The notes beneath the pieces are model-generated. The model saw nothing but the letters and a program-made list of their open reading frames with translations. It searched no databases and was not told the DNA's origin. Positions 1,847-13,362 of a stretch of DNA of 37,559 bases are shown in pieces. The stretch covers positions 1-37,559 of the forward strand of contig SUWB01000034.1 of the NCBI GenBank assembly GCA_015061745.1, read 5' to 3'. Position 1 is the stretch's first letter, and every line of letters begins with the position of its first letter. The stretch comes from Lentisphaerota bacterium. Lineage in GTDB: Bacteria; Verrucomicrobiota; Lentisphaeria; Victivallales; Victivallaceae. Position numbers and translations under genes: made by a program.

Positions 1847-2923
1847 ATGACATTCTTTACGGATGCCCGTCGTGGTGCGGCTTGGCTGCACCGTCATTCC
1901 CTCAAACAGCAATTTTTTGACGATTCTGCGGAAAAACATAGCGTCACTTGTCAAATATGTGTCTATGTTTTGCACAAAATTGCTCCTTGCCTTAATATTT
2001 ACCGTTGCAATTCTGCAAAATGCGGGATTGTCGGTTTTGCAAATGCAAAAACGGCAATCCACCAAAAGTTTTTGGCAAGGATGGATGGGGTCCGGGGAAG
2101 GAAGGGAGAACCTTTTTTCAAAAAGGGTTCCCTTCCTTCCCCGGCTCCTTTCACCTTGATAGAACTTCTTGTCGTGATTGCTATTATTGCCATATTGGCC
2201 GGAGTTCTGCTCCCTGCATTGGGAAAGGCCCGGGAAAATGGAAAAAGTATCAATTGTACCGGCAATGTCAAGCAATTGACTATGGCTAATCTGCTTTACA
2301 GTGACGGCAATAAAGGTTTTTTTGTTCCTTATGCCAGAGATATGCTCAGTTTTAATAAACAGCGGTGGTGCGGAACGACTGAAACTTCAAGCAGTCAGGG
2401 GGATTCTGCGGTATATGACCTTTATACTTCACCCTTGACTCCCTACATAGGAACGCTGAGTGGAATTACACATTGCAGCAGTTTGATTTCACCGCCAAAG
2501 AGTTTTGAAAAGAATTGCGGCGGCTACGGATATAATGTGCTGGTCGGGACTTTGTATGCAGGGGAGTATTCAGTGGAAAGTTTTTCTTCCGGCTGCTCCG
2601 CAAAACGGATGAAAAATGCCGGAAAAAAGATTATGTTTGCAGATTCCGGTATTATGGTCGACGATAAGGGCAATTGGAGTTCCCGGCCCACCCGGCACGG
2701 ATACAGTGCCAGTATTGAAGCTCCGGGAGATGAGGGTGGCTGGCTCGCCAATCCTACGATGCACTTCAGACATAACAAAAGGGCTGTGATCTCTTATTGT
2801 GACGGCCACGTCGGGAGTTCTCCTCTTATAGACTCTGCCTATGGGGATGAAAAGTATCTTTTGGGACATCCCTGTGCCAATACGAATGAAATGCGTAGAG
2901 AAATTTTTGATCCCCGCTATTGA
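1847..2923 (+). CDS. pseudopilin-like protein with H-X9-DG motif, behind a B12 riboswitch
   Basis: A 358-residue ORF. Residues 102-118 form the prepilin helix [17 protein letters not shown], followed by [10 protein letters not shown], as in the many type II secretion/type IV pilin-like proteins of Lentisphaerota and Planctomycetes. Near the C-terminus is [15 protein letters not shown], an exact H-X9-DG motif. The N-terminal 101 residues are not typical. About residues 34-110 are encoded by a 230-bp repeat also found in the gene at 12319, and residues 1-33 resemble nothing I recognise. The residue before the usual cleavage Phe is Pro, not Gly, so prepilin peptidase processing is doubtful. The start is uncertain: 1847 has only a weak purine-rich site (AAAGAAAGA), and ATG 2081 is an internal alternative. 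The product should sit in the inner membrane or periplasm. Confidence 0.75.
1946..2175 (+). repeat. 230-bp palindromic coding cassette, copy A
   Basis: This stretch matches 12370-12599 at 219 of 230 bases without gaps. Ten of the 11 differences fall in roughly the first 75 bases. It contains successive stem-loops: TTGCA/TGCAA (2005-2018), an imperfect 16-bp stem at 2025-2060, CCAAAA/TTTTGG at 2062-2075, and a perfect 16-bp stem CCGGGGAAGGAAGGGA/TCCCTTCCTTCCCCGG with a partly paired interior at 2092-2144. It is translated in frame and ends within the FTLIELLVV codons. Beyond 2175 the two genes diverge at synonymous positions, which sets the 3' boundary. Confidence 0.85.
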
Positions 2924-2951
2924 GTTTGTAATGAAAAAAGGTGAAATAATA

Positions 2952-3173
2952 ATGAAAATTCTGTTTGTATTTCTTTTTATACTGATACTTTCCGGTTGCG
3001 GCAAAAAACAGGTCAAGACTGATCCTGTTGTTGAAGCGGAGATGAAAATTCCAGTAACTTGCATCCGGTGCCGTCAGACTGCACCGCGTATTTCCTATCG
3101 GCGTGTGAATCAGGTTTTGGTGCAGTGCACCAGGTGTCAAAAGATTTTCACTACTCTGAAAAAAGGACGGTAA
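2952..3173 (+). CDS. small lipoprotein with a CxxC-CxxC zinc-ribbon-like domain
   Basis: A 73-residue protein. The N-terminal MKILFVFLFILILSGC is a lipoprotein signal with lipobox LSGC, so it should be lipid-anchored on the periplasmic side or at the outer membrane. The mature part has two CxxC pairs, CIRC and CTRC, separated by about 20 residues, resembling a small zinc-ribbon or MJ0042-like finger. That is unusual in an exported protein. An AAAGGTG ribosome binding site lies about ten bases before ATG 2952; an upstream in-frame ATG at 2931 is possible. It follows the pseudopilin by 28 bases and is closed by a terminator, so both are probably under the cobalamin riboswitch transcript. Function unknown. 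Confidence 0.7.
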   Translation: MKILFVFLFILILSGCGKKQVKTDPVVEAEMKIPVTCIRCRQTAPRISYRRVNQVLVQCTRCQKIFTTLKKGR

Positions 3174-3197
3174 GAAGAAGAAAAAAATCTTGACTGT

Positions 3198-3244
3198 CGC
3201 TGTTCTTTCTTTGCGTTATGAGCAGGAAAAGCAGCGGCTTTTTT
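3198..3244 (+). terminator. probable intrinsic terminator of the riboswitch unit
   Basis: CGCTGTTCTTTC (3198-3209) pairs with GGAAAAGCAGCG (3225-3236) with one mismatch and two G-U pairs, followed by GC and a run of six T. It separates the lipoprotein gene from the promoter of the permease. Confidence 0.55.
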
Positions 3245-3264
3245 GTAATCTGTGTGCGGCAGAC

Positions 3265-3293
3265 TTGAAAAATTTTACAGTTTGCTATATATT
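3265..3293 (+). promoter_or_regulatory. promoter of the metal permease gene
   Basis: TTGAAA (3265-3270), 17 bases, TATATT (3288-3293). It lies about 50 bases before the ATG at 3342, so the permease is transcribed independently of the upstream riboswitch unit. Confidence 0.65.
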
Positions 3294-3341
3294 ATGCCGA
3301 TCAAAAAATTTATTTATTCATAATTAAAGGAAGGTATATTT

Positions 3342-4388
3342 ATGAATATTGTTGCGGATTATGCGGAGAACTTCTGGAGTATATTTTCAGCAATGGCACC
3401 GTGGCTGCTTTTCGGTTATCTTGCTGCCGGAGTTATTGCATATTTTCTGAAACCGGAGCAAGTCAAAAAACATCTGGGGGGCCAAGGGATCAAAGCGGTA
3501 TTAAAAGCTGTGTTTATCGGTATTCCTTTGCCCGTTTGTTCCTGCGGCGTCATTCCCATAGCCACGGCGTTGCGGGATGAAGGGGCCGGCAAAGGAGCGA
3601 CCGGAGCATTTTTTATTTCCACGCCGCAAATCGGTGTGGACAGTGCGATCGTTACGGGAAGTATGCTGGGCTGGAGTGCTGCTGTTTTCCGGGCGGTTAC
3701 GGCTTTTATTTCCGGGATCACCGGAGGGATGCTGATTTCGCTCTTGTGCAAGGAAACTTCAGCGCCTCAGGAAGAAAAAAAGAAATCCTGCTGCTGTTGC
3801 TGCTGTCATTCAAAAAAGGTTGTAAAAGAGGGGCAGAATCCCCTTGTTTTTATGCTTTCTTACGGTTTCTTGCGTATGATGAAAAGCACCGCGCCTTCTC
3901 TGCTGCTGGGTATGGCAATAGCCGCTTTGATCCGGCAGCTTGTTCCGGAAAACTTCGGAGCTGAATATCTTTGCGGCAGTATTTTTCTTGAATTTGCAGT
4001 TGTATTGATTTTTTCGATTCCCCTTTATGTTTGTTCAAGTGCCTCAGTTCCGGTGGCACTTGCTCTGATACTTAAAGGCTTTTCACCCGGGGCTGCCTTG
4101 CTGTTTTTGATTGCGGGGCCGACGATCCACAGTGTTTCCATTACCTCTATGCGGCAGATCATCGGAACAAAAGCAATGCTGATCGCTGTGGGAACGATCG
4201 CTTTCTGGGCTGTTATGGCGGGCGTTATTGTCAATGCGTTCAACATTCCTGTCAATACAGCTGTCTCTTATATATCTTCATCCGGAAACTGTGCCGTTTT
4301 GAAAACGGTTTGCGGCATCGTACTTGCGCTTTTGGTCTGCCGGGCATTGGCAGCAAGGTATCTTGAGAAACATCCAATAAAGAAATAA
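3342..4388 (+). CDS. SO_0444/DUF318-type permease (putative Cu/Zn efflux)
   Basis: A 348-residue polytopic membrane protein with about eight predicted helices in two similar halves. The first half carries the family signature PLPVCSCGVIPIATALRDEG followed by GATGAFFISTPQIGVDS. The second half has the matching PLYVCSSASVPVALALILKG and FLIAGPTIHSVS. This places it in the DUF318 (PF03773) permease group, named in databases as SO_0444 family Cu/Zn efflux transporters or ArsP-like proteins. The central cytoplasmic loop has a run of six cysteines followed by His, flanked by lysines, a plausible soft-metal binding site. It has its own promoter and terminator. The metal specificity cannot be determined from the sequence. 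Confidence 0.8.
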   Translation: MNIVADYAENFWSIFSAMAPWLLFGYLAAGVIAYFLKPEQVKKHLGGQGIKAVLKAVFIGIPLPVCSCGVIPIATALRDEGAGKGATGAFFISTPQIGVDSAIVTGSMLGWSAAVFRAVTAFISGITGGMLISLLCKETSAPQEEKKKSCCCCCCHSKKVVKEGQNPLVFMLSYGFLRMMKSTAPSLLLGMAIAALIRQLVPENFGAEYLCGSIFLEFAVVLIFSIPLYVCSSASVPVALALILKGFSPGAALLFLIAGPTIHSVSITSMRQIIGTKAMLIAVGTIAFWAVMAGVIVNAFNIPVNTAVSYISSSGNCAVLKTVCGIVLALLVCRALAARYLEKHPIKK

Positions 4389-4414
4389 TAATTATTGAAA
4401 TACCTGTTCTTACA

Positions 4415-4444
4415 ACAGAGTCCGGAAAAGGGCTCTGTTTTTTT
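4415..4444 (+). terminator. intrinsic terminator after the permease gene
   Basis: ACAGAGTCC (4415-4423) pairs with GGGCTCTGT (4430-4438) around a short A-rich loop, followed by a run of T. Confidence 0.8.
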
Positions 4445-4514
4445 GTGTCAACAAAGGGAAGGGGGATTGTCAAAGAATGAACAATGAATAGTTTTTTTGT
4501 TTAAAACAAAAAAA

Positions 4515-4589
4515 TGGCTCCGGCGCTTGGGCTCGAACCAAGAACCAAGTGGTTAACAGCCACCTACTCTACCATTGAGCTACGCCGGA
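4515..4589 (-). tRNA. tRNA-Asn (GTT)
   Basis: On the minus strand the acceptor arm TCCGGCG pairs with CGCCGGA. The D arm (GCTCAATGGTAGAGT), the anticodon loop CTGTTAA on a five-base stem (GTT, Asn) and the T arm GGTTCGAGCC are all in place. CCA is encoded at the 3' end. It lies 18 bases downstream of tRNA-Arg and is probably co-transcribed with it. Confidence 0.95.
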
Positions 4590-4607
4590 GCATCTGATAC
4601 TCTTAAA

Positions 4608-4684
4608 TGGTACACCCAAAGGGATTTGAACCCCTAACCTTCTGGTCCGTAGCCAGACGCTCTATCCAATTGAGCTATGGGTGC
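4608..4684 (-). tRNA. tRNA-Arg (ACG)
   Basis: On the minus strand GCACCCA pairs with TGGGTGT (last pair G-U), discriminator A, and CCA is encoded. The anticodon loop is CTACGGA on stem TCTGG/CCAGA, giving anticodon ACG (Arg, read as ICG after deamination). The T arm contains GGTTCGAATCC. It is the first gene behind the promoter at 4758-4730. Confidence 0.95.
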
Positions 4685-4729
4685 ACGTTTTAGTCTTTGT
4701 TGAACGTTGTCATCATTGACTATGTTCCT

Positions 4730-4758
4730 AATATACACCCGGAAAAACAACTTTTCAA
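4730..4758 (-). promoter_or_regulatory. promoter of the tRNA-Arg/tRNA-Asn unit
   Basis: On the minus strand TTGAAA (4758-4753), 17 bases, TATATT (4735-4730), about 45 bases before the tRNA-Arg 5' end. Confidence 0.7.
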
Positions 4759-4778
4759 GTAAAAATTTGAAAAAAATG

Positions 4779-4807
4779 TTGATTTTTTTGAAAAAAAGTG
4801 GTATTTT
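4779..4807 (+). promoter_or_regulatory. promoter of miaB
   Basis: TTGATT (4779-4784), 17 bases, TATTTT (4802-4807). It lies divergent from the tRNA promoter and leaves a leader of about 105 bases before the miaB ATG. This also disfavours a longer miaB ORF starting at 4798. Confidence 0.5.
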
Positions 4808-4920
4808 ATGCAATGCGACACTTCCGGCAGGAAAAAAAGAGTTCTCTGCGGGGAAAAATTTGTCGGGAATTGACTTTGAAGTTGAAAATTTGCTCCTTTG
4901 CAGATCACAGAGGTTTTTAT

Positions 4921-6249
4921 ATGAAATACTTTATCCGTACTTACGGCTGCCAAATGAATGAGAGAGATTCTGAAGCGATCGGTGCCGCTTTGGAAGCTGC
5001 CGGATTTACCAGAGGAACTGAAGAAGATGCTGATTTGCTCCTTTTTAATACTTGCAGCGTCAGAGATGCCGCCGAACGCAAGGCAAAAGGAAAAATCGGC
5101 TATATCCGCAAACTGAAACAGAAAAATCCCAACCTTATTATAGGCGTGACCGGTTGTATGGCCCAGCGGCTGGGGGAAGAGCTGCTCAAAGAACTTCCTC
5201 ACCTTGATTTTGTTCTCGGTACCGGCCAGATGCAGCGGCTCGTCCCTCTTGTGAATGAAATCGCCCGGGATCGCGTCCGCCGGGTCGAAACGGAACCGTC
5301 AGCTGAAGTCCTTGAAAGTATGGGCGGGCACGATGCCGCTCCTTCCTGGCACGGTCAAATCGCCATTACCCGGGGGTGCAACCGCTTTTGTTCCTATTGT
5401 ATTGTCCCCTATGTCCGGGGACGTGAGATCAGCCGGACAAGAGAATCCATTATGGCTGAAGCACGGGCACTGGTGGATAAAGGCGTCCGGGAAATTATGC
5501 TCTTGGGACAGAATGTGGCCGCTTACGGCCTTAACGGAGATACCCGCCCTCCTGCCAGCGGTCACTCTCCCTTTGCAGAACTCCTTGAGGAAATGAATGA
5601 GATCCCCGGATTGCTCAGGATCCGTTTCACTTCTCCTTACGTCAGCTATTTCAATGACCGGCTGATCGGGGCTTTGAAAAATTGTTCAAAAGTCTGCCAT
5701 AATATTCATTTACCGCTGCAATCCGGTTCCGACCGCATCCTGAAAGCGATGAACCGGCAGTATACGGCCGAAAGTTTCCTTGCCAAAGTGGATGAAATCC
5801 GCAGTGCCATTCCGGATGTGACATTTTCCACCGATGTGATCGTCGGATTCCCGGGGGAAGAAGAGAGCGATTTTCTTATGACAAGGGATGTGATGAACAA
5901 AGTGGGCTTTGAACAGGCCTATGTCTTTAAATATTCACCTCGCCCCGGAGCGAAATCAGCCCTTCTGGCAGATTCCGTTCCCGAAGAAATCAAAGAAGAA
6001 CGCAATCAGATCCTCTTGGGGGATCTTAAAGAAAGAGTCGTAAAAAAACTTAAAACCCTCAAAGGAGAAACTGTGGAAGTGCTCCTTGAAGGTGTCAGTG
6101 CCAGAAATGCCCAGCGGTGGAGCGGCCGTACATCCACAAGTTTTGTGGTGCACTTTGAGCCTGATGCTCAGTGTATTCCCGGGATCTTGCGCCGGGTGAA
6201 AATCACTCAGGTCAACACCGTGTCACTCTTTGGCGAATTGCTGCCTTAA
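4921..6249 (+). CDS. miaB: tRNA-2-methylthio-N6-dimethylallyladenosine synthase MiaB
   Basis: A 442-residue radical-SAM methylthiotransferase that adds the 2-methylthio group to i6A37 in tRNAs reading UNN codons. The N-terminal UPF0004 domain supplies the auxiliary 4Fe-4S cysteines: Cys10 in TYGCQMN, Cys45 in NTCSVRD and Cys79 in GCMAQ. The radical-SAM CxxxCxxC motif is CNRFCSYC (Cys153, 157, 160), followed by VPYVRGRE and GQNVAAYG. The HLPLQSGSDRIL and DVIVGFPGE blocks are typical of MiaB, and a C-terminal TRAM domain covers about the last 65 residues. The start at 4921 gives the normal MKYFIRTYGCQMN terminus; the upstream extension to 4798 is not conserved sequence. The 3' end overlaps the convergent gene by 27 bases. 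Confidence 0.95.
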   Translation: MKYFIRTYGCQMNERDSEAIGAALEAAGFTRGTEEDADLLLFNTCSVRDAAERKAKGKIGYIRKLKQKNPNLIIGVTGCMAQRLGEELLKELPHLDFVLGTGQMQRLVPLVNEIARDRVRRVETEPSAEVLESMGGHDAAPSWHGQIAITRGCNRFCSYCIVPYVRGREISRTRESIMAEARALVDKGVREIMLLGQNVAAYGLNGDTRPPASGHSPFAELLEEMNEIPGLLRIRFTSPYVSYFNDRLIGALKNCSKVCHNIHLPLQSGSDRILKAMNRQYTAESFLAKVDEIRSAIPDVTFSTDVIVGFPGEEESDFLMTRDVMNKVGFEQAYVFKYSPRPGAKSALLADSVPEEIKEERNQILLGDLKERVVKKLKTLKGETVEVLLEGVSARNAQRWSGRTSTSFVVHFEPDAQCIPGILRRVKITQVNTVSLFGELLP

Positions 6250-6849
6250 TGATTCCGCCCGGGCCCGAAGGGTTTTCTTTTCTCCCTGAGGATAAAAGAA
6301 GATTTTTGCCTCTTTTTCAAGCAGGGAAAGGGCTTCTTCCGGGCGGCCGAGCTGTATTTGCCAGTCGGCGTAACGGAGTACGATGGGCAAATTGAGTTCA
6401 TTATAACGCCAGGGACGGTGTTTGAAGTAAAAAAGACAATCATTGAGAGCTGATTCAAGATCGTGAAACTCCAGTGCGTGCAGGTTTGCCAGCATCAGAG
6501 TTATTTCCGGTGAACCTTTGTGGTTTTGCCGTACTTTCAGGAGTTCAAGTTCTGCTTCTTCAAAGCGTCTGCGGGCAATAAGCCCCTGCTGATGAGAGAG
6601 AATGGGGGGAGCTTTTTTCAAAAAACGCCGGGGATACAAAAGAAAGTCGATCAACGAAGCTGCTGCCGGACCGGAATAAAGCAGGGCTGTGACCAAACCG
6701 TAAAGATAAAGAGCCGCCAGAAGAAAAAAGCCGCCCAGGATGACTTCCAGCGGATTATCTGCTTTGAACATCTGAATAAAAATGTACACCGGCAGTGCCG
6801 CATGCAGTATTGTAACGATGATTCGCAGAGATACAGATATTAATGACAT
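6223..6849 (-). CDS. small membrane protein with TPR-like C-terminal part
   Basis: A 208-residue hypothetical protein. The N-terminal part has two hydrophobic segments (about residues 5-27 and 37-60), then a soluble part of about 140 residues rich in short amphipathic helices (QGLIARRRFEEAELELLKVR, LANLHALEFHDLESALND, RPEEALSLLEKEA). These read as two to three degenerate tetratricopeptide repeats facing the cytoplasm. The start is MSLISVSL at 6849 with AAGG upstream. The longer reading from 6903 would begin within the -10 region, so it is rejected. It converges with and overlaps miaB. I do not recognise a specific family; a scaffold or assembly role is only a guess. Confidence 0.7.
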   Translation of the reverse strand: MSLISVSLRIIVTILHAALPVYIFIQMFKADNPLEVILGGFFLLAALYLYGLVTALLYSGPAAASLIDFLLYPRRFLKKAPPILSHQQGLIARRRFEEAELELLKVRQNHKGSPEITLMLANLHALEFHDLESALNDCLFYFKHRPWRYNELNLPIVLRYADWQIQLGRPEEALSLLEKEAKIFFYPQGEKKTLRARAESLRQQFAKE

Positions 6850-6894
6850 AAACAGCCTTTCTGAAAATATCCGGATGAAGTTGATACTTCCCTT

Positions 6895-6923
6895 AATATA
6901 CATTGCAATATTTCTGATGTCAA
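6895..6923 (-). promoter_or_regulatory. promoter of the TPR-like membrane gene
   Basis: On the minus strand TTGACA (6923-6918), 17 bases, TATATT (6900-6895): a near-consensus sigma-70 promoter. It fixes the coding start downstream, at 6849. Confidence 0.7.
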
Positions 6924-6945
6924 AAAAGTTTTTACATTATTTTTC

Positions 6946-6974
6946 TTGATAATTCACTGCCGGTGTACTATATT
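6946..6974 (+). promoter_or_regulatory. promoter of the kinase-HAD-sfsA operon
   Basis: TTGATA (6946-6951), 17 bases, TATATT (6969-6974), with the GTG start of the first gene only 32 bases downstream. It is divergent from the promoter at 6923-6895. Confidence 0.65.
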
Positions 6975-7005
6975 AACAGCAGAAATATGATGTGGAGGAA
7001 CGGCG

Positions 7006-8001
7006 GTGAAAGGTGAATATGCAGGGCATCTGCCCGCAAGTGATCCGATGTTCGGTTTTTTGCGGGAATCTATTTTTCCGCAGCTCGGGAGTGACTGTTC
7101 TGAAGGAGTGAGAGTTTTCAGAACAAACGGCTCCAATGCCGTTTATATTTATGAAGACCGGAAAAGCTGTAAAAGTGTTGTCGGCAAATTTTTCCGTTCC
7201 GAACACAACAGAGATTACGATCTTGCCCGGCAGCGTTTGAACAGAGAGTATGACAATATCGGCCGTTTTTCCTCTTATTTGGGTAAAGAACATCACGTTG
7301 CCCGGGTACTCGGACGTAATGAGGCGTTGAATTGCCTGCTGGTGGTGGAATATTGCCCGGGACTGCTGCTCGATCAGATCATCTGGCGGAGTGTCGCAGA
7401 AGCCGATCCTGTGCTGCTCAAAAGAAAACTTGGGGCTTTGGCAGATTTGCTTGTGACGGTACACAATAAATCTGCTTCAGGAGTCCGGGTCGATTCTGAT
7501 CCGGTGTGTTCTTATTGCAATGCCCTTGTCGGGGAGCTGCGGGGATTGTTTGCCCCCGGAGAAAGGGAATGGTTTGAAGGGCAAATCGGACTCTGGCACC
7601 GGGATCCTGTTATGGAAGAAGATAATCAGGTGTTGGTACACGGAGATGCAACGCCTTCCAATTTCGCTTTCGGAGAGGGCAGGGCGGTTTTTGCATTTGA
7701 TATGGAACGGGTCCGCTATGCAGACCGCTGCTTTGATGTCGGACGTATTGCAGGTGAATTACAGCATTTCTTTATGCGTACTGTTCACGATCCCTGGGCC
7801 GCTGAGGAGTTTATTCATCATTTTTTGCAAGAGTATTCCGGACATTTTCCCGACAGAGAAGCGGCTTTCAAAGCTATTACCCGCAGACTTCCTTTTTATA
7901 TGGGAGCAACTTTACTGCGGATCGCACGCAATTCCTATCTGGAAAAAGAGTACCGCAGAGTTCTCATTGAGGCTGCCGGCAGGTGTTTGAGGAGGGAATG
8001 A
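7006..8001 (+). CDS. aminoglycoside phosphotransferase-fold kinase
   Basis: A 331-residue protein starting with GTG, with GGAGG seven bases upstream. The C-terminal lobe has the APH/choline-kinase catalytic loop HGDATPSNF (His212-Gly-Asp214, Asn219) and a DFG-equivalent FDMERV at 231-236. VVGKFF near residue 60 could be the nucleotide-binding beta strand with the ATP lysine, and VVEYCPG at 113-119 is the hinge. The fold phosphorylates small hydroxylated metabolites such as sugars or choline. There is nothing here to suggest antibiotic resistance. Its stop overlaps the start of the HAD gene (ATGA), and sfsA follows, so the three are translationally linked. The substrate is unknown. Confidence 0.75.
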   Translation: MKGEYAGHLPASDPMFGFLRESIFPQLGSDCSEGVRVFRTNGSNAVYIYEDRKSCKSVVGKFFRSEHNRDYDLARQRLNREYDNIGRFSSYLGKEHHVARVLGRNEALNCLLVVEYCPGLLLDQIIWRSVAEADPVLLKRKLGALADLLVTVHNKSASGVRVDSDPVCSYCNALVGELRGLFAPGEREWFEGQIGLWHRDPVMEEDNQVLVHGDATPSNFAFGEGRAVFAFDMERVRYADRCFDVGRIAGELQHFFMRTVHDPWAAEEFIHHFLQEYSGHFPDREAAFKAITRRLPFYMGATLLRIARNSYLEKEYRRVLIEAAGRCLRRE

Positions 8002-8732
8002 TGAAGTTCAAAGCACTTTTGTTTGATATTAACGGAACTGTCTGCAATATCCTGACATCTGAAGATGATGAAAATCTTTACCGGGTAACCGCAAATTATC
8101 TGTGGTACAGAGGGGTGAAAATATTGCCCGGTGAATTGAAAAAACGTTACCTTGAACTGAATCGGCAGCAGAGAAAAGAAAGTCCTGAAACCTATCCGGA
8201 ATTTGATGTGGTCAAGATATTTCAGGTCGTGATCGAACAATACCGGGGAAGTGTTCGTGCCTCGCATACCCTTGCTGTTGCTGCTGCAACTCTTTTCAGA
8301 GCAGCGTCTCTTTTTCGCCTTGAGCTTTATGAAGGGGTGAACGAAGTCCTCTCTGTAATGAAAAGGCATTACCGGTTGGGAGCTGTGTCTGACGGGCAGA
8401 GTTTATGGGCCGCACCGGAAATGAAAATGACCGGGTTGAACCGTTTTTTTGAATTTTCAGTCGTTTCCGGAGATTATGGATTCCGCAAGCCTGACAGCAG
8501 AATGTTTGAACTTGCCTTGACCCGGCTCAGGCTTGACAAAAGTGAGGTGATTTATGTGGGAAATGATATGTACCGGGATATCTGGGGAGCTTGCAATGCC
8601 GGATTGAAAACCATTTTTTTCAAATCCAATCAGGGGGAGCAGGCCTTTGCCGGGGCTGACCCTGACTATATTATTTACAACTTTAATGAACTTCCTCAGG
8701 CAGTGGAATTTCTGGAAAATAAAGGAACTTGA
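8001..8732 (+). CDS. HAD-superfamily hydrolase-like protein with altered motif I
   Basis: A 243-residue HAD protein. Motif I reads LFDINGT: the nucleophile Asp9 is present, but the usual acid/base Asp two residues later is Asn11. Motif II Ser is in GAVSDG, motif III Lys in GFRKPD, and motif IV in VGNDMYRDIWGA. A helical C1 cap occupies about residues 20-110. The family is mainly phosphatases; with DxN the phosphatase turnover may be weak or altered. The start at 8001 fits the GAGGAGG site at 7989-7995 (five-base spacing); the ATG at 7998 is too close. It overlaps the kinase gene by one base. Confidence 0.8.
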   Translation: MKFKALLFDINGTVCNILTSEDDENLYRVTANYLWYRGVKILPGELKKRYLELNRQQRKESPETYPEFDVVKIFQVVIEQYRGSVRASHTLAVAAATLFRAASLFRLELYEGVNEVLSVMKRHYRLGAVSDGQSLWAAPEMKMTGLNRFFEFSVVSGDYGFRKPDSRMFELALTRLRLDKSEVIYVGNDMYRDIWGACNAGLKTIFFKSNQGEQAFAGADPDYIIYNFNELPQAVEFLENKGT

Positions 8733-8736
8733 TTGT

Positions 8737-9417
8737 ATGCGTTATGAAAAAGTGATCCGGGGAATCTTTCTCAACCGTCCCAACCGTTTTATCGCTGAAG
8801 TTGAAGTAAATGGTCAAATTGAACGTGTCCACGTCAAAAACACCGGACGCTGCCGGGAACTCCTTGTACCGGGCTGCTGCTGCTTTTTAAGCGATTCCGG
8901 CAATCCGGAACGTAAGACCCGGTACGACTTGATCGCTGTTCAAAAAGGGAATTTGCTTATCAATATGGATTCTCAAGTTGTAAACAGTGTGGCAGAGGAA
9001 TATTTGAAAAAGGGAACGCTTTTTTCAAAAGATGCTCTCATCCGCCGTGAGGTGACTTACGGTAAATCCCGCTTTGACTTTTATATAGAAGACGGAGCAA
9101 GGAAAATTTTTCTTGAGGTTAAAGGAGTGACTTTAGAAAATGAAGGAATCGTCTCTTTTCCTGATGCCCCCACGGAAAGAGGCGTTAAACATCTGAATGA
9201 GTTGATCAGTGCGGTGAAAGATGGTTTTGAATGTTATGTGTTCTTTGTCATTCAGATGAAAGGCGTCAAATCCTTTTTTCCAAACGATGTGACCCATCCT
9301 GAATTCGGAGAAACTCTGAGAAGGGCTGAAAAAAATGGCGTCAGGATCCTCGCTATGGATTGTCAGGTCACCCCCGATACTCTGATAATCGCAGAGCCGG
9401 TGAAAATCTGCCTTTGA
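8737..9417 (+). CDS. sfsA: SfsA family protein (sugar fermentation stimulation)
   Basis: A 226-residue SfsA homologue, close to the usual 230-240. The N-terminal OB-like half includes VHVKNTGRCRELLVPG. The C-terminal half has a nuclease-like fold with RFDFYIEDG, FLEVKGVTLE, FPDAPTERGVKHLNEL and YVFFVIQM, all highly characteristic of SfsA. E. coli SfsA was described as a maltose-gene regulator and DNA binder; the fold suggests a nucleic-acid enzyme, and the true role is unsettled. The ATG at 8737 with AAAGGA ten bases upstream gives the normal terminus; an earlier frame opening would overlap the HAD gene. It is the last gene of the three-gene operon. No terminator was seen before 9433. Confidence 0.9.
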   Translation: MRYEKVIRGIFLNRPNRFIAEVEVNGQIERVHVKNTGRCRELLVPGCCCFLSDSGNPERKTRYDLIAVQKGNLLINMDSQVVNSVAEEYLKKGTLFSKDALIRREVTYGKSRFDFYIEDGARKIFLEVKGVTLENEGIVSFPDAPTERGVKHLNELISAVKDGFECYVFFVIQMKGVKSFFPNDVTHPEFGETLRRAEKNGVRILAMDCQVTPDTLIIAEPVKICL

Positions 9418-9432
9418 AACCGGAAAGAACGC

Positions 9433-9461
9433 TTGAAAATAATTTTTTCGTGTGCTATATT
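9433..9461 (+). promoter_or_regulatory. upstream (distal) promoter of the glycosidase-pseudopilin operon
   Basis: TTGAAA (9433-9438), 17 bases, TATATT (9456-9461) with an extended TGC before the -10. It begins 16 bases after the sfsA stop codon. Confidence 0.65.
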
Positions 9462-9520
9462 ACCGCAAAGATCATATTTTAAATTTGATAAAATAAGATA
9501 TTACATTAAAATTTAAGTCA

Positions 9521-9549
9521 TTGAAAATCTTTTTACAAAACACTATATT
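9521..9549 (+). promoter_or_regulatory. proximal promoter of the glycosidase-pseudopilin operon
   Basis: TTGAAA (9521-9526), 17 bases, TATATT (9544-9549), about 42 bases before the ATG at 9591. With the distal promoter it forms a tandem pair 88 bases apart. Confidence 0.65.
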
Positions 9550-9590
9550 AGTTCACAGATGCACACCATTTGTCAATCAGGAACTGAAAA

Positions 9591-12299
9591 ATGAAACATA
9601 TTGCCGCGCAGTATTTTCTCAATACTGATCTCCGCAAAGAGGAACTTGAAGAACAAGGTGAAATGCTTTGCGATACCGGTTATGAAGAAATCTATCTTCA
9701 CGCCCGCGCCGGAATGAAGACACCATACCTTTCCAAACAGTGGTTTGAAGCACTTCAGACAGTAACAGAGGTCCTTAAAAAGCACAATGTCAGATTTTCC
9801 ATCTGGGACGAAGACAATTTCCCCTCGGGAACCGCCGGCAACCGCATTGTCAACAACTACCCCGAACTTGCCGCCCAGCGGTTGAATTTTCTGGTATTTG
9901 ATGCACCCGAAGGGGAAAAGCTCCGGGAGTTTTTTTCAGGATCAGGTGCTTTTCTCAAAGCCTTTGCAGTCAGTTCTCAAGGGGAGATCACAGACATTTC
10001 GGAATACTGCGGCACTTTGAGAAGCAAGTGGACCTCCCCCCGTACCAATCTTTCGGCTTATTCGCCTTACGGTCAGCTGCCCCTGCCTCACCGGCGCCGT
10101 TCTATGGACACCACCCGTATGGCCATTGAGTACACCCCTGCCGTGGATTGCAGGATCGTGGTGGTGGAGATCCTCAGAGATGCCCTGCGCCACAACACCG
10201 ACCTTCTGAACAGCGAAACTGTTGACCGTCTGGTTGAATACACTCATGAAGAATACAAGCGTATCTGGGGAGCGGAAAACTTGAAAAAAGAGTGTCTGTC
10301 CTCATTTCTTGATGAACCTGCTCCCGAAGGCTGTTTCCCCTGGACACGTCGTTTTCCGGAGGAGTTCCGCAAAGACCATAACTACGATCTTCCCCCTCTT
10401 CTGCCTCATATTTTCCTTGATCTGACATCTGAAAGTGCCAGGATCCGCAACGACTACCGTACCACGCTCCACAGACTTCTCTGTCAGAACTATCTGGGAC
10501 ATCTGAAGAAATATCTCAATACCAACGGACTCCTCAGCGTCGGACACCTGAGCCGTTCTGAATATCTCTCCTGTTCCAACACCAGGTGGCCCAATGAACT
10601 GCGTTGTCTTCAATATCTGGACATCCCTTGTGGTGATCCTCTGGGAGGCGGTGTGGGCAGAATGGGCAGTATGGCACACCATCTGGGGCTGAAAACCGTA
10701 GCCGCCGCCGCCCGTTTTGCCGGAAAACCCGCCGGTGCCGACGCTTTCGCCGTGGGCGGTGACAGTATCAGTCTGCGTGATCTTAAATTTATGGCTGATT
10801 ATCACCTTGTTATGGGGATCACCTATTTCAACATCCACGGTCTCAACTACACCATTGAAGGGGAAAGTTTTGATGAAACGCCCCCGTCCCTCTTTTACCA
10901 GCACAGTCAGTGGCAGCATATGAAAGAGTTTATAAGTTATCTGAAAAAACGCTGCCAACTCCTCTCTGCACCGCATATCTGCACCACAGGATTCCTTTAT
11001 CCCGATGTCACACTGAAGTGTCTGGCTCAAGATGCCCCTGTTCCTGATGAACTCTTTCATCAAACGGCAGAGGAACTTCTTTCACACCAGCGGGATTTTG
11101 AACCCATCGACAGCATAACCCTTGCGGAACAGTCCCCTGAGGATTACGCCCGGCTGCGCCCCTTTTTCATCGTTGCCAACAATGACAGGATCGTCCGCTC
11201 AACAGCAGAATTTCTGGAACGCTACGTTGAAGCAGGAGGTCGCCTCATCGTCACAGGATGTATCCCTCAAATCGTCGATCTCCCCGGCGTTCCCGTGTGG
11301 AATTTTGCTGAACGATATTATACCGGCGACATTGTTTCCTCCATTCCCGGTCCGGAACTCAAAGGTGAAGGCAGTGAAGCTGTACTCATCCGTCAGTTTG
11401 AAACAGCCGATGGTACCGACACCTTTATTTTCAACCGTTCCGACCTTCCCTTTGAAGGCTCCTTTGAGGGTAAAAAACTTCTTCTTGAACCGGGAGAGTC
11501 AAAACTGGCAAGTGAACTTGCAACTTGCTCCCCCGCTCAGATCCTCCCCCTTCCGGAAATTTGGACACTCCGCTTTGAAGGGCTCAATTCAGTTCCTCTG
11601 ACCTTCTGGAATTATCGCAGCGGTATGATCGAACTTTTCAGCCTGGCGAGGCAGGAAGAACATCCCCTTGCGGAAGCAAAGGAGTTCCACTCAAATTTTC
11701 TGGTCTCCTCCGGCTTCAGAGTTTTCCTGACTGTTGAGGAAAATATGCTGAAAAAAGGGGCTTTTTCTGTTAATGGAGTCCCTGTCACCGGTTTTGCCAA
11801 AACACGATTCCGGGATTGCCGCGATCTGGAGTGTGATATTACCGGACACCTCAACACAGGTCGTTCCCCTCTGCTGAACAAGATCACCTTTACAGGAACT
11901 CCCCTCTTTGGCAGTCCCCCTTATCTGCGGGGAGTTTTCAGTGCCAGAGTCCCCCCCGGCGGAGAAAATTATCCCATCCTGACGGCAGCTCCCGGAGAAT
12001 ATACCTTCAAGGACAAAGCAGATTTTCGCGGATTCGGTTACGGAACATACTCAGGTCCGGCACGCTGCACAGCAAAAGCAGAAGTTGTTCAAAAAGAGAA
12101 ATACACCATCCGTTTTGCAGCGATCAATGACTCCGCGTGTCTCTTCATCGACGGCGAAGATCAGGGGATCCGCATAGCCCCCCCTTACGTATGGGAGGTT
12201 GAACTTTCACAGGGAGAACATACAATAGAGCTTGAAATATGCAACAATTCCGGCAACCGTGACCGCAATCTGGGGTTACCCGCCGGAATGCAAATTTAA
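9591..12299 (+). CDS. putative GH106-like glycoside hydrolase, cytoplasmic
   Basis: A 902-residue protein without a signal peptide. It opens with [20 protein letters not shown], and a barrel-like region spans about the first 480 residues. That region includes [18 protein letters not shown] and [15 protein letters not shown], which resemble the (alpha/beta)8 start of glycosyl hydrolase family 106-type proteins (alpha-L-rhamnosidase-like), and [10 protein letters not shown] as a candidate acidic catalytic strand end. A middle Rossmann-like region (about 480-600) contains [16 protein letters not shown]. The C-terminal 250 residues look like beta-sandwich ligand-binding domains ([20 protein letters not shown]). 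It probably splits an imported oligosaccharide. It is first in an operon with a pseudopilin and a secreted hydrolase. The family call is moderate and the substrate is not established. Confidence 0.6.
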
Positions 12300-12318
12300 T
12301 CAAAAGGAGCAAAAAGTC

Positions 12319-13362
12319 ATGAAATTACAGAAAAAACATTTTGCCTTGATCGAACTGCTGGTGAGTAAAACTTGTCAAATATGTGTTTATACTTTGCGAA
12401 AAATTGCCTCTTGCCTTAATATTTGCCATTGCAATCCTGCAAAATGCGGGATTGTCGGTTTTGCAAATGCAAAAACGGCAATCCACCAAAAGTTTTTGGC
12501 AAGGATGGATGGGGCCCGGGGAAGGAAGGGAGAACCTTTTTTCAAAAAGGGTTCCCTTCCTTCCCCGGCTCCTTTCACCTTGATAGAACTTCTTGTCGTA
12601 ATTGCAATAATTGCCATTCTTGCGGCTATGCTTCTGCCTGCTTTGCAGCAGGCACGGGGCAGAGCGCAGATTGCTTCCTGTATCAATAACTTGAAACAGC
12701 TGGGGCAGGGGGCTTTTACTTATACTCAGGATTTTAAAGATTATTACGTGCCAGGCTACCATTTTGACCAGAAGTTCGGTGACCGCAAAGACAACTGGGT
12801 GCGCCGTCTTATCAGAACCAATTGTATTCAAGGCAACATCCTGATTTGTCCCAGTCGTAACCATGGATTGACTGGCGGAAAAGTCAGCTGGAGAAATGAA
12901 TTGAAACAGACAACTGCTCAAAAATATAGTTTCAGCACCTACGCTTGTGATGTGCCGGAGTATGGGTATAATTATTATTTTGTCGGTATGAACCGGCTTA
13001 AATATTCCGGTGGAGAAACTAAAGAACCTGCTAAAGTCGGTACGTTCAAAGAGCCTGCAAGAAAAATTATGTTTGCTGACGTTGAGGAGTATAATACAGG
13101 AAATTCCGATAAAAGTGATGCTGCCCATGGCGTAAATCCCATTTTGATTTTCTATCCGACCTTGACTACAAATGAAACGGCAGGCTATCTTTCTCCCCGG
13201 CATCAGGCAAGCACCAATATCCTTATGGTTGCGGGTAATGTTGCCAATTTCAAAACTGTCGGAACCGGAACTCCCGGTATCAACTTTTTGCATACCTATG
13301 TTGCAAAAAGTGCCAATACTGCGGGAAATATGTGGACCCGCGGCAGCAAGATTCCGTGGTAA
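12319..13362 (+). CDS. pseudopilin-like protein with a duplicated prepilin motif
   Basis: A 347-residue protein. It starts [15 protein letters not shown], a normal pseudopilin beginning, but the helix is interrupted after residue 15 by about 70 residues encoded by the 230-bp repeat. The complete helix [17 protein letters not shown] then appears at residues 86-102, followed by [13 protein letters not shown]. The interrupting segment is Cys-rich (CQIC, CHC) and ends in a basic and Pro-rich stretch. Near the C-terminus [13 protein letters not shown] matches the H-X9-DG pattern except that Asp is Ala. AAGGAG at 12304-12309 supports the ATG at 12319. It is 19 bases behind the glycosidase and 32 bases before a secreted hydrolase, so it belongs to a carbohydrate operon. 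Confidence 0.8.
12370..12599 (+). repeat. 230-bp palindromic coding cassette, copy B
   Basis: Same cassette as 1946-2175 (219 of 230 bases identical, no indels). Stem-loops lie at 12449-12484, 12486-12499 and 12516-12568, the last with a perfect 16-bp stem. Its 5' end abuts the host gene's own LIELLV codons (ending 12363), and its 3' end carries a second set of FTLIELLVV codons with different synonymous choices. This marks the insertion junction. Confidence 0.85.

Follow-up and report, generated by a model that had tools for sequence, protein, structure and literature searches.

In-frame cassettes at the prepilin motif of Lentisphaerota pseudopilin genes: probable selfish elements of the leader

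Results

Two pseudopilin genes with a common cassette

The window, by which we mean the whole stretch of 37,559 nucleotides analysed here (contig SUWB01000034.1, positions 1 to 37,559), belongs to the draft genome of a Lentisphaerota gut bacterium (GCA_015061745.1; G000 among our genomes) of 3,101,592 bases in 75 contigs that is 91.55% complete. Two genes in it carry a copy of the same cassette, which we assign to a class A, at their prepilin motif. The features are as follows:

1847..2923, plus strand: pseudopilin-like gene 1, 358 amino acids, with the presumed working prepilin motif from residue 101
1939..2172, plus strand: class A cassette copy 1, 234 nt, its probable left edge placed by alignment with copy 2
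2025..2060, plus strand: second hairpin of copy 1, 17-nt arms, 88% complementary
2092..2144, plus strand: large hairpin of copy 1, perfect 16-bp outer stem, with compensatory changes among homologues
2156..2172, plus strand: cassette-borne LIELLV of FTLIELLV in copy 1, the gene's last, presumed working motif
12319..13362, plus strand: pseudopilin gene 2 from its ATG (DUF1559/SBP_bac_10), identified by profile matches
12340..12362 (valine codon through 12363), plus strand: host-encoded upstream motif FALIELLV, with the insertion point after its GT
12363..12596, plus strand: class A cassette copy 2, 234 nt, delimited by alignment and motif reading
12516..12568, plus strand: large hairpin of copy 2, from inverted-repeat pairs and the RNA fold
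12580..12596, plus strand: cassette-borne LIELLV of FTLIELLV in copy 2, the last, presumed working motif

The N_methyl profile matches the product of gene 1 at residues 102–122 with 20.3 bits, below the cut-off of 21.2, and TIGR02532 (prepilin-type N-terminal domain) scores 21.3 bits, over its cut-off of 16.3. Gene 2 reaches 26.4 bits with PF07596 (DUF1559; cut-off 23.3) and 20.5 bits with TIGR02532 (cut-off 16.3); its N_methyl score likewise falls just under the cut-off.

An initial annotation, made from the letters of the window, had described two nearly identical, gapless stretches within host genes otherwise unrelated at the DNA level. Alignment reproduces the identity, which amounts to 219 of 230 positions between 1946–2175 and 12370–12599 without gaps, and the left flanks of the two copies agree at just 15–20 per 60 bases when aligned row by row. 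The chain of stem-loops that it reported is found as well: the arms CCGGGGAAGGAAGGGA and TCCCTTCCTTCCCCGG form the perfect 16-bp stem, and both copies fold far more stably than 200 shuffled sequences (z of −8.2 as DNA and −7.4 as RNA). Its statement that the cassette is translated in frame was borne out by reading both host genes. In gene 1 the upstream motif has been lost, and its position now reads FDDSAEKH. In gene 2 the first base of the cassette is the third base of the FALIELLV valine codon, and the copy closes with the GT of the FTLIELLV that it carries. Over its first 17 bases (GAGTAAAACTTGTCAAA) it is identical to the class D cassette that a close relative, G044, has at the orthologous site.

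Class A copies and their junctions

A blast search of the source genome with the window cassette returned about 41 long matches at 87–100% identity, and 41 distinct copies, from matches spanning more than 150 query bases, were read with their flanks. All 41 lie in pseudopilin genes at the prepilin motif, and all are in frame and free of stops, 37 running into the pseudopilin and four into a further cassette. The proposed tie to the prepilin motif thus holds in 41 of 41, with ends positioned at the motif and not at random relative to it, and the two copies known to the initial annotation have become 41, besides fragments at contig ends (L113, L120, L122, L126), so that the true number is probably higher. 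Since contigs also start inside cassettes (C8, C45, C52, C63 and C66 of the source genome and several contigs of G044), their number in draft assemblies is probably too low. That the two window genes are simply recent paralogues, which the initial annotation had considered as an alternative, is rejected on the unrelated left flanks and the 41 copies in different genes. Six copies are nearly identical, namely window copy 2 and five others at 99–100% identity in other gene contexts. An assembly artefact is judged unlikely, as many copies are internal to long contigs and others occur in other draft genomes.

A typical copy begins where the GT of the final valine codon in the host FTLIELLV ends and closes with an FTLIELLV of its own, after which follows the host VIAII helix or another cassette. 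A second, host-encoded motif stands directly upstream; it was read in 39 of the 41 copies (all but L011 and L040) and is exactly FTLIELLV in 29 of these 39. The sequence of the class A end is basic, as in a prepilin leader. One copy, L040, lacks an internal stretch close to its 5' end, keeps the frame across the deletion and resumes at LNTCRC.

The wobble bases of the upstream motif, at 29 class A sites where it is host-like, resemble in frequency those of 32 motifs at which no cassette is recognised, and the downstream motif (46 class A right ends) has a cassette-like wobble pattern in which positions 5 and 14 are split between two bases. Across 42 class A right ends, identity is about 0.98 before the motif, 0.84–1.00 in its first part and 0.94 and 0.83 at positions 9–14; from the bin containing the GT onward it is at the level of sites without a cassette (0.81). 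In a nearest-neighbour test on 40 copies (L040 left out; 1000 shuffles), right position 5 and the left wobble base track cassette likeness (equalled in 0 and in 3 of the shuffles). Right position 14, equalled in 131 of 1000 shuffles, is not clearly linked. No link to the cassette is seen for the right wobble base, for positions +20 and +26 on the right or for any of the five left positions tested, of which three lie within the motif and two ahead of it. Junction identity and linkage together define a unit of 234 nt, from the base after the host GT to the GT of its own motif; the initial annotation had thus correctly placed the end within the FTLIELLV codons, and its extent of 230 bp has to be revised. 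In some copies, and above all in classes B–D, the right junction varies over the last ~7 nt of the motif.

A family of cassette classes

The motif pattern occurs 158 times in the source genome, against three times for the reversed control. In 96 cases it is followed by G and in 62 by another base, and at least one of these 62 (on C49) is not a pilin. Five classes, to which we gave the names A–E in this analysis, begin at the same base and so have a common left junction:

Class A: SKTCQIC..., 234 nt
Class B: SAACKVR...FTQSA
Class C: TTAQQNC...FTQSA
Class D: SKTCQ...ACEASAS...PCFIRSA
Class E: KRSHLCC...VKLYS

Classes B–E span 29–77 codons and can stack. We collected 112 units (68 from the source genome, 36 from G044 and eight from others), which are in frame by construction and measure 29–78 codons, apart from one merged interval of 88; only intervals of at least 25 codons were collected. 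Modules are mixed among cassettes, stacks reach three deep (L004, L125), and L001 and L002, which belong to the six nearly identical class A copies, have a chimeric, D-like 5' end. Text patterns find at least one cassette in about 63 of the 95 pseudopilin genes that have a terminal motif (L080 being excluded as a false class A).

Reading frame was assessed on a set not selected for it, consecutive motifs no more than 400 nt apart. The pairs are in frame and free of stops in 56 of 57 cases in the source genome and 35 of 35 in G044 (91 of 92 together), and the sole exception, L096, holds a run of N.

Five cassette peptides compared with known protein domains gave a best E value of 0.041 and no domain. 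Rfam returned 33 matches in five loci, all below the gathering threshold and, except for one viral CRE, to microRNA precursors; with nothing above that threshold, a known RNA family is ruled out as the identity of the cassette. Nine pseudopilin genes of the source genome (L077, L081, L092, L101, L102, L106, L112, L121 and L123) have no upstream motif and a short leader like SPACRQVKLYS. Such leaders correspond to the 3' end of class E and are perhaps cassette remnants or solo ends.

Selection on peptide, motifs and hairpins

Among the 40 class A copies used for selection (L040 left out), differences at the three codon positions number 122/111/93 and the dN/dS-like ratio is 1.27; the amino acids of class A look neutral. 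None of the 40 contains an in-frame stop, and both other forward frames are stopped in 40 of 40. The chance of finding no in-frame stop is 0.049 on the class A substitution spectrum, which is weak, and the evidence for the frame therefore comes mainly from the consecutive motifs (91 of 92). Amino-acid changes are found in 10 of 39 upstream motifs and in 0 of 39 downstream motifs (Fisher p 0.001); that of window copy 1 is one of the ten and is unrecognisable.

For class D, 17 of 19 listed sequences (two longer ones were dropped) and five helices were analysed. Paired cells make up 98.8%, against 93.4% after shuffling, and double-changed cells number 37 against 13.8 (0 of 500 shuffles as high). 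The class A hairpin, in 11 of 17 listed sequences from three genera, is paired in 96.4% of cells against 94.0%, with 11 double-changed cells against 4.2 (again equalled in 0 of 500). The number of pairs that contain a double change and that of further pair types show no excess over shuffles in class D (93 and 485 of 500) or in class A (273 and 449 of 500). As the shuffles keep relatedness, the compensation is supportive, and not proof, of hairpins being kept with compensatory changes.

Orthologous sites in a close relative

A match of more than 500 nt in G044 was found for 33 of 99 loci of the source genome, and the flanks are ~95% identical or more only at L001, L011 and L015, so that statements on gain and loss rest on few pairs. 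In G044, 100 of 129 motif places were listed, and 60 of 72 planned stretches were read in addition to eight earlier ones. At the orthologue of window gene 2, where the flank is 98.8% identical across 2,907 nt, the position of the class A copy is taken by a class D cassette. Cassette bodies also differ at one site between L011 and L218 (95.5%, on the downstream side alone, as the contig of the source genome starts inside the cassette) and between L002 and L205, where the flanks are 68–72% identical. The 36 units read in G044 include 17 of class E and none of class A, and none of the 10 of 77 class A candidates scored there proved to be one. The close relative thus has another cassette at the site of the window gene and many copies of another class.

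At L015 the source genome has a class B followed by a class A cassette, and the first G044 copy, L169, has class B alone, with flanks of ~95% identity. The G044 motif consists of the left part of the motif before A in the source genome and the right part of the motif after A. This composite relates the two alleles, as gain or as loss, and marks them, as judged from the aligned bases, as differing by recombination between the two motif copies that flank class A. The crossover fits inside the motif, between positions 5 and 9, and not a cut at the GT; a deletion in G044 might also account for the difference. The single gene at L015, which looks fused, has two pseudopilin genes in tandem as its counterpart in G044 (C2).

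Spread across genomes

Class A DNA has a match in six of 78 genomes of the family, the source genome included, one of them to the hairpin only; 10 candidates per genome were scored, which leaves the record of its absence elsewhere incomplete. Eighteen named loci come from Lentisphaeria MAGs from sheep and roe deer colon. Of 137 genomes in the order, 24 match the 3' half common to classes B–D, here called class Q; they belong to eight of 48 genera and to two families. Thirteen of the 17 class Q loci examined, four of them in family f8, have 99 identical nt in common; L232 (f8), L234 (the genus of the source genome) and L235 have 129 in common, and L237 (f1), L239 and L242 (f8) have 138. In five cross pairs the host DNA drops to 60–70% over 90 nt and then to 30–39% (ungapped). 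Runs of 99–138 identical nt between two families, in different host genes, indicate that cassettes move horizontally.

The genomes are drafts, and several of the identical copies lie at contig ends. L231, L233, L236, L237, L239, L241 and L242 are near an end or have little sequence on one side; L229, L232, L234, L235 and L238 are not near contig ends, so that mis-binning alone does not explain the identity across families. A 201-base class Q query had no match in phages and plasmids, and an exact 35-mer had none in viral contigs; on these searches a phage, plasmid or virus is ruled out as carrier. At L243, in another genus (G068), a class Q cassette is directly followed by a local class A-like cassette (VTAQILCDFAKKTITVFADAKNVITR).

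Candidate movers

Y1_Tnp has a match in nine of 34 genomes of the genus. That of the source genome is a fragment of 36 positions (86–121 of 121), G044 and G048 have none, and the class Q carriers G032, G040 and G047, all drafts, do have one. RVT_1 (reverse transcriptase) is matched in eight of 34, the only class Q carrier among them being G055, with none in the source genome, G044 or G048. IS110 (DEDD recombinase) is matched in five of 34, with none in G044, G048 or G055. The IS110-type transposase match of the source genome, G000:C54:11-352, begins 11 bases from a contig end. Among Y1_Tnp, RVT_1 and IS110, the three families searched, these drafts hold no mover common to the source genome, G044 and G048. 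With no gene common to the three drafts, Y1 transposase, reverse transcriptase and IS110 each appear unlikely as the mover.

Discussion

The cassettes have multiplied within the genome, are stacked, differ at orthologous sites and are identical in different genera and families. We consider it likely that they are selfish leader cassettes which use the prepilin motif as insertion site, rebuild it and recombine by way of it, within a leader that is probably removed. They would be short mobile units, encoding no enzyme and specialised on this motif. Because each starts after a GT, consists of whole codons without stops and brings its own FTLIELLV, frame, motif and hydrophobic helix are restored downstream. 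Only the last motif would then be in use, and the cassette would become part of the prepilin leader cut by the prepilin peptidase. A match to the prepilin peptidase family is present in 32 of the 34 genomes of the genus, the source genome included (its prepilin peptidase is at C33:24209), so a cassette before the last motif would presumably be lost together with the leader, which would make its insertion nearly harmless. Spread would proceed by recombination via motif copies and common 5' cassette ends and would start from a putative nuclease or recombinase cutting at the GT, and the hairpins would be what is recognised or maintains itself. A specific cut at the GT is favoured by how sharp the left junction is, and ordinary recombination across short homologous stretches by the chimeric 5' ends and by the L015 case; we think that both act, recombination swapping and excising cassettes and the specific cut starting new insertions. 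Only tentatively, and with somewhat less than even confidence, do we propose that this is a new class of mobile DNA parasitising one protein motif, which cuts at the GT, restores the motif and is removed with the leader by the peptidase; such an element would tolerate synonymous variation because it follows the protein code.

Two readings divide the evidence on movement. Ordinary leader segments might be shuffled among paralogues by gene conversion or unequal crossover through the repeated motif, with neither dedicated mobility nor selfish drive. The D-like 5' ends on class A copies L001 and L002, the mixing of modules between cassettes, the G044 motif at the L015 locus, which is an exact recombinant of two motifs of the source genome, and the fact that Y1_Tnp, RVT_1 and IS110 offer no common mobile enzyme all suit recombination of this kind; however, efficient spread is suggested by the five further copies at 99–100% to window copy 2 in other contexts and by the identical DNA found in a second family, no linkage to the cassette body is seen at the upstream motif positions tested, and boundaries cluster near the GT where a scatter over the homologous stretch would be expected, and we regard homologous recombination as the whole explanation as rather unlikely. 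Alternatively, a serine, tyrosine, IS110-type or HUH recombinase might act in trans and join a circular cassette to the motif with crossover at the GT. The order of host motif GT, cassette, cassette motif GT and host is the geometry of half-site integration, the left junction is common to five classes, the left wobble base tracks the cassette and the right one does not, and the identity of L232 and L234 stops at the GT. Site-specific transposition nevertheless appears doubtful to us on the three enzyme families searched: the source genome has no RVT_1, a mere fragment of Y1_Tnp and an IS110 match beside a contig end, and G044 and G048 have none of the three.

The remaining readings concern what becomes of the cassette in the gene product. 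Elements subject to translational bypassing go by the name byp. Strong hairpins between two copies of the same codons are what one might look for if ribosomes skipped the cassette from the first to the second motif, and the part of PMC6649704 that deals with the mitochondria of the yeast Magnusiomyces capitatus describes ribosomal bypassing of palindromic elements. Skipped gaps need not stay open, whereas the frame here is open in 91 of 92 motif pairs and in 41 of 41 class A copies, and the first motif, which would be the take-off site, decays (10 of 39); bypassing is therefore highly improbable. That the cassettes are adaptive and tune expression, targeting or processing of individual pseudopilins would accord with their presence in ~63 of 95 genes by text pattern and with the basic end of class A, as found in prepilin leaders, but the near-neutral amino-acid change in class A, the different cassettes at orthologous sites and the patchy distribution make adaptive diversification of leaders an unlikely account.

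The selfish-cassette reading which we prefer has parallels in known systems. Rickettsia palindromic elements (RPEs) were reportedly described by Ogata et al. in 2000 and 2002. As characterised in the relevant portion of PMC10969869, they are hairpins of ~150 bp in several families, inserted in frame, translated and apparently selfish. The initial annotation had proposed an RPE-like coding palindromic element at the prepilin motif, mobile or spread by gene conversion. Copy number, frame and motif position fit this proposal, which is supported; the upstream host motif, the further classes, the identical DNA in another family and the swap and gain-or-loss alleles are what it had missed. Like RPEs, the cassettes form hairpins and lie in frame in host genes; unlike RPEs, which are reported from many unrelated genes, class A is in pseudopilin genes in 41 of 41 cases, at one protein motif and in a probable leader, and it restores that motif. 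According to the passage on them in PMC6649704, the arms of RPEs become less identical over time, in contrast to the compensatory change in the cassette hairpins. The likeness is one of features.

PARCELs of Mollicutes and others, as described in PMC2996958, are coding palindromic repeats with a patchy horizontal distribution, intragenomic shuffling and a link to membrane proteins, and consist of a 25-residue, tandemly repeated amphipathic motif. The cassettes are similar in all four of the former respects; by comparison with that description, they differ in measuring 29–78 codons, with none of 25 among intervals of at least 25 codons, and in a peptide that varies by class. REP elements are mostly extragenic. 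Associated with RAYT transposases, they are short, high-copy hairpins which are thought to need a factor in trans and which bear a GTAG or CGTC tag, as stated where PMC3733652 introduces them. The cassettes, too, are short, numerous and hairpin-forming, but no intact Y1 transposase is seen in the drafts of the source genome, G044 and G048. MITEs make target duplications. They are likewise short and high-copy, with terminal inverted repeats, in the brief treatment of PMC10969869. No inverted pair of at least 8 nt joins the unit ends in the two window copies, and in most loci synonymous differences separate the two motif copies on either side, unlike the equal copies of a target-site duplication. 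Coding inverted repeats that are apparently actively maintained occur in Nematomorpha mitochondria, on the account given in the pertinent part of PMC6649704; the cassette hairpins also lie in coding sequence and seem to be maintained, but theirs are scattered in ordinary mitochondrial genes, while the cassettes are at a fixed motif. Among the matches listed from open-licence papers (in part the best 10–20 of at least 23) there is no account of such cassettes; novelty in print is not established.

Introns are concealed by splicing of the RNA and inteins by splicing of the protein. If the leader-cassette reading is true, a cleaved leader would be a third way for an element to reside in genes harmlessly, with protein-processing machinery doing for the cassette what splicing does for introns and inteins. 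The same reading would account for the long leaders that many pseudopilins of these bacteria have, and it provides a set of sites at which a coding mobile element can be tracked between close strains as it is gained, swapped or lost. As to the cleavage site itself, the residue before FTLIELLV in 31 terminal-motif genes without a recognised cassette is glycine in four and most commonly serine (11), and the rarity of glycine at −1 suggests that the prepilin peptidase of this lineage may have an unusual specificity.
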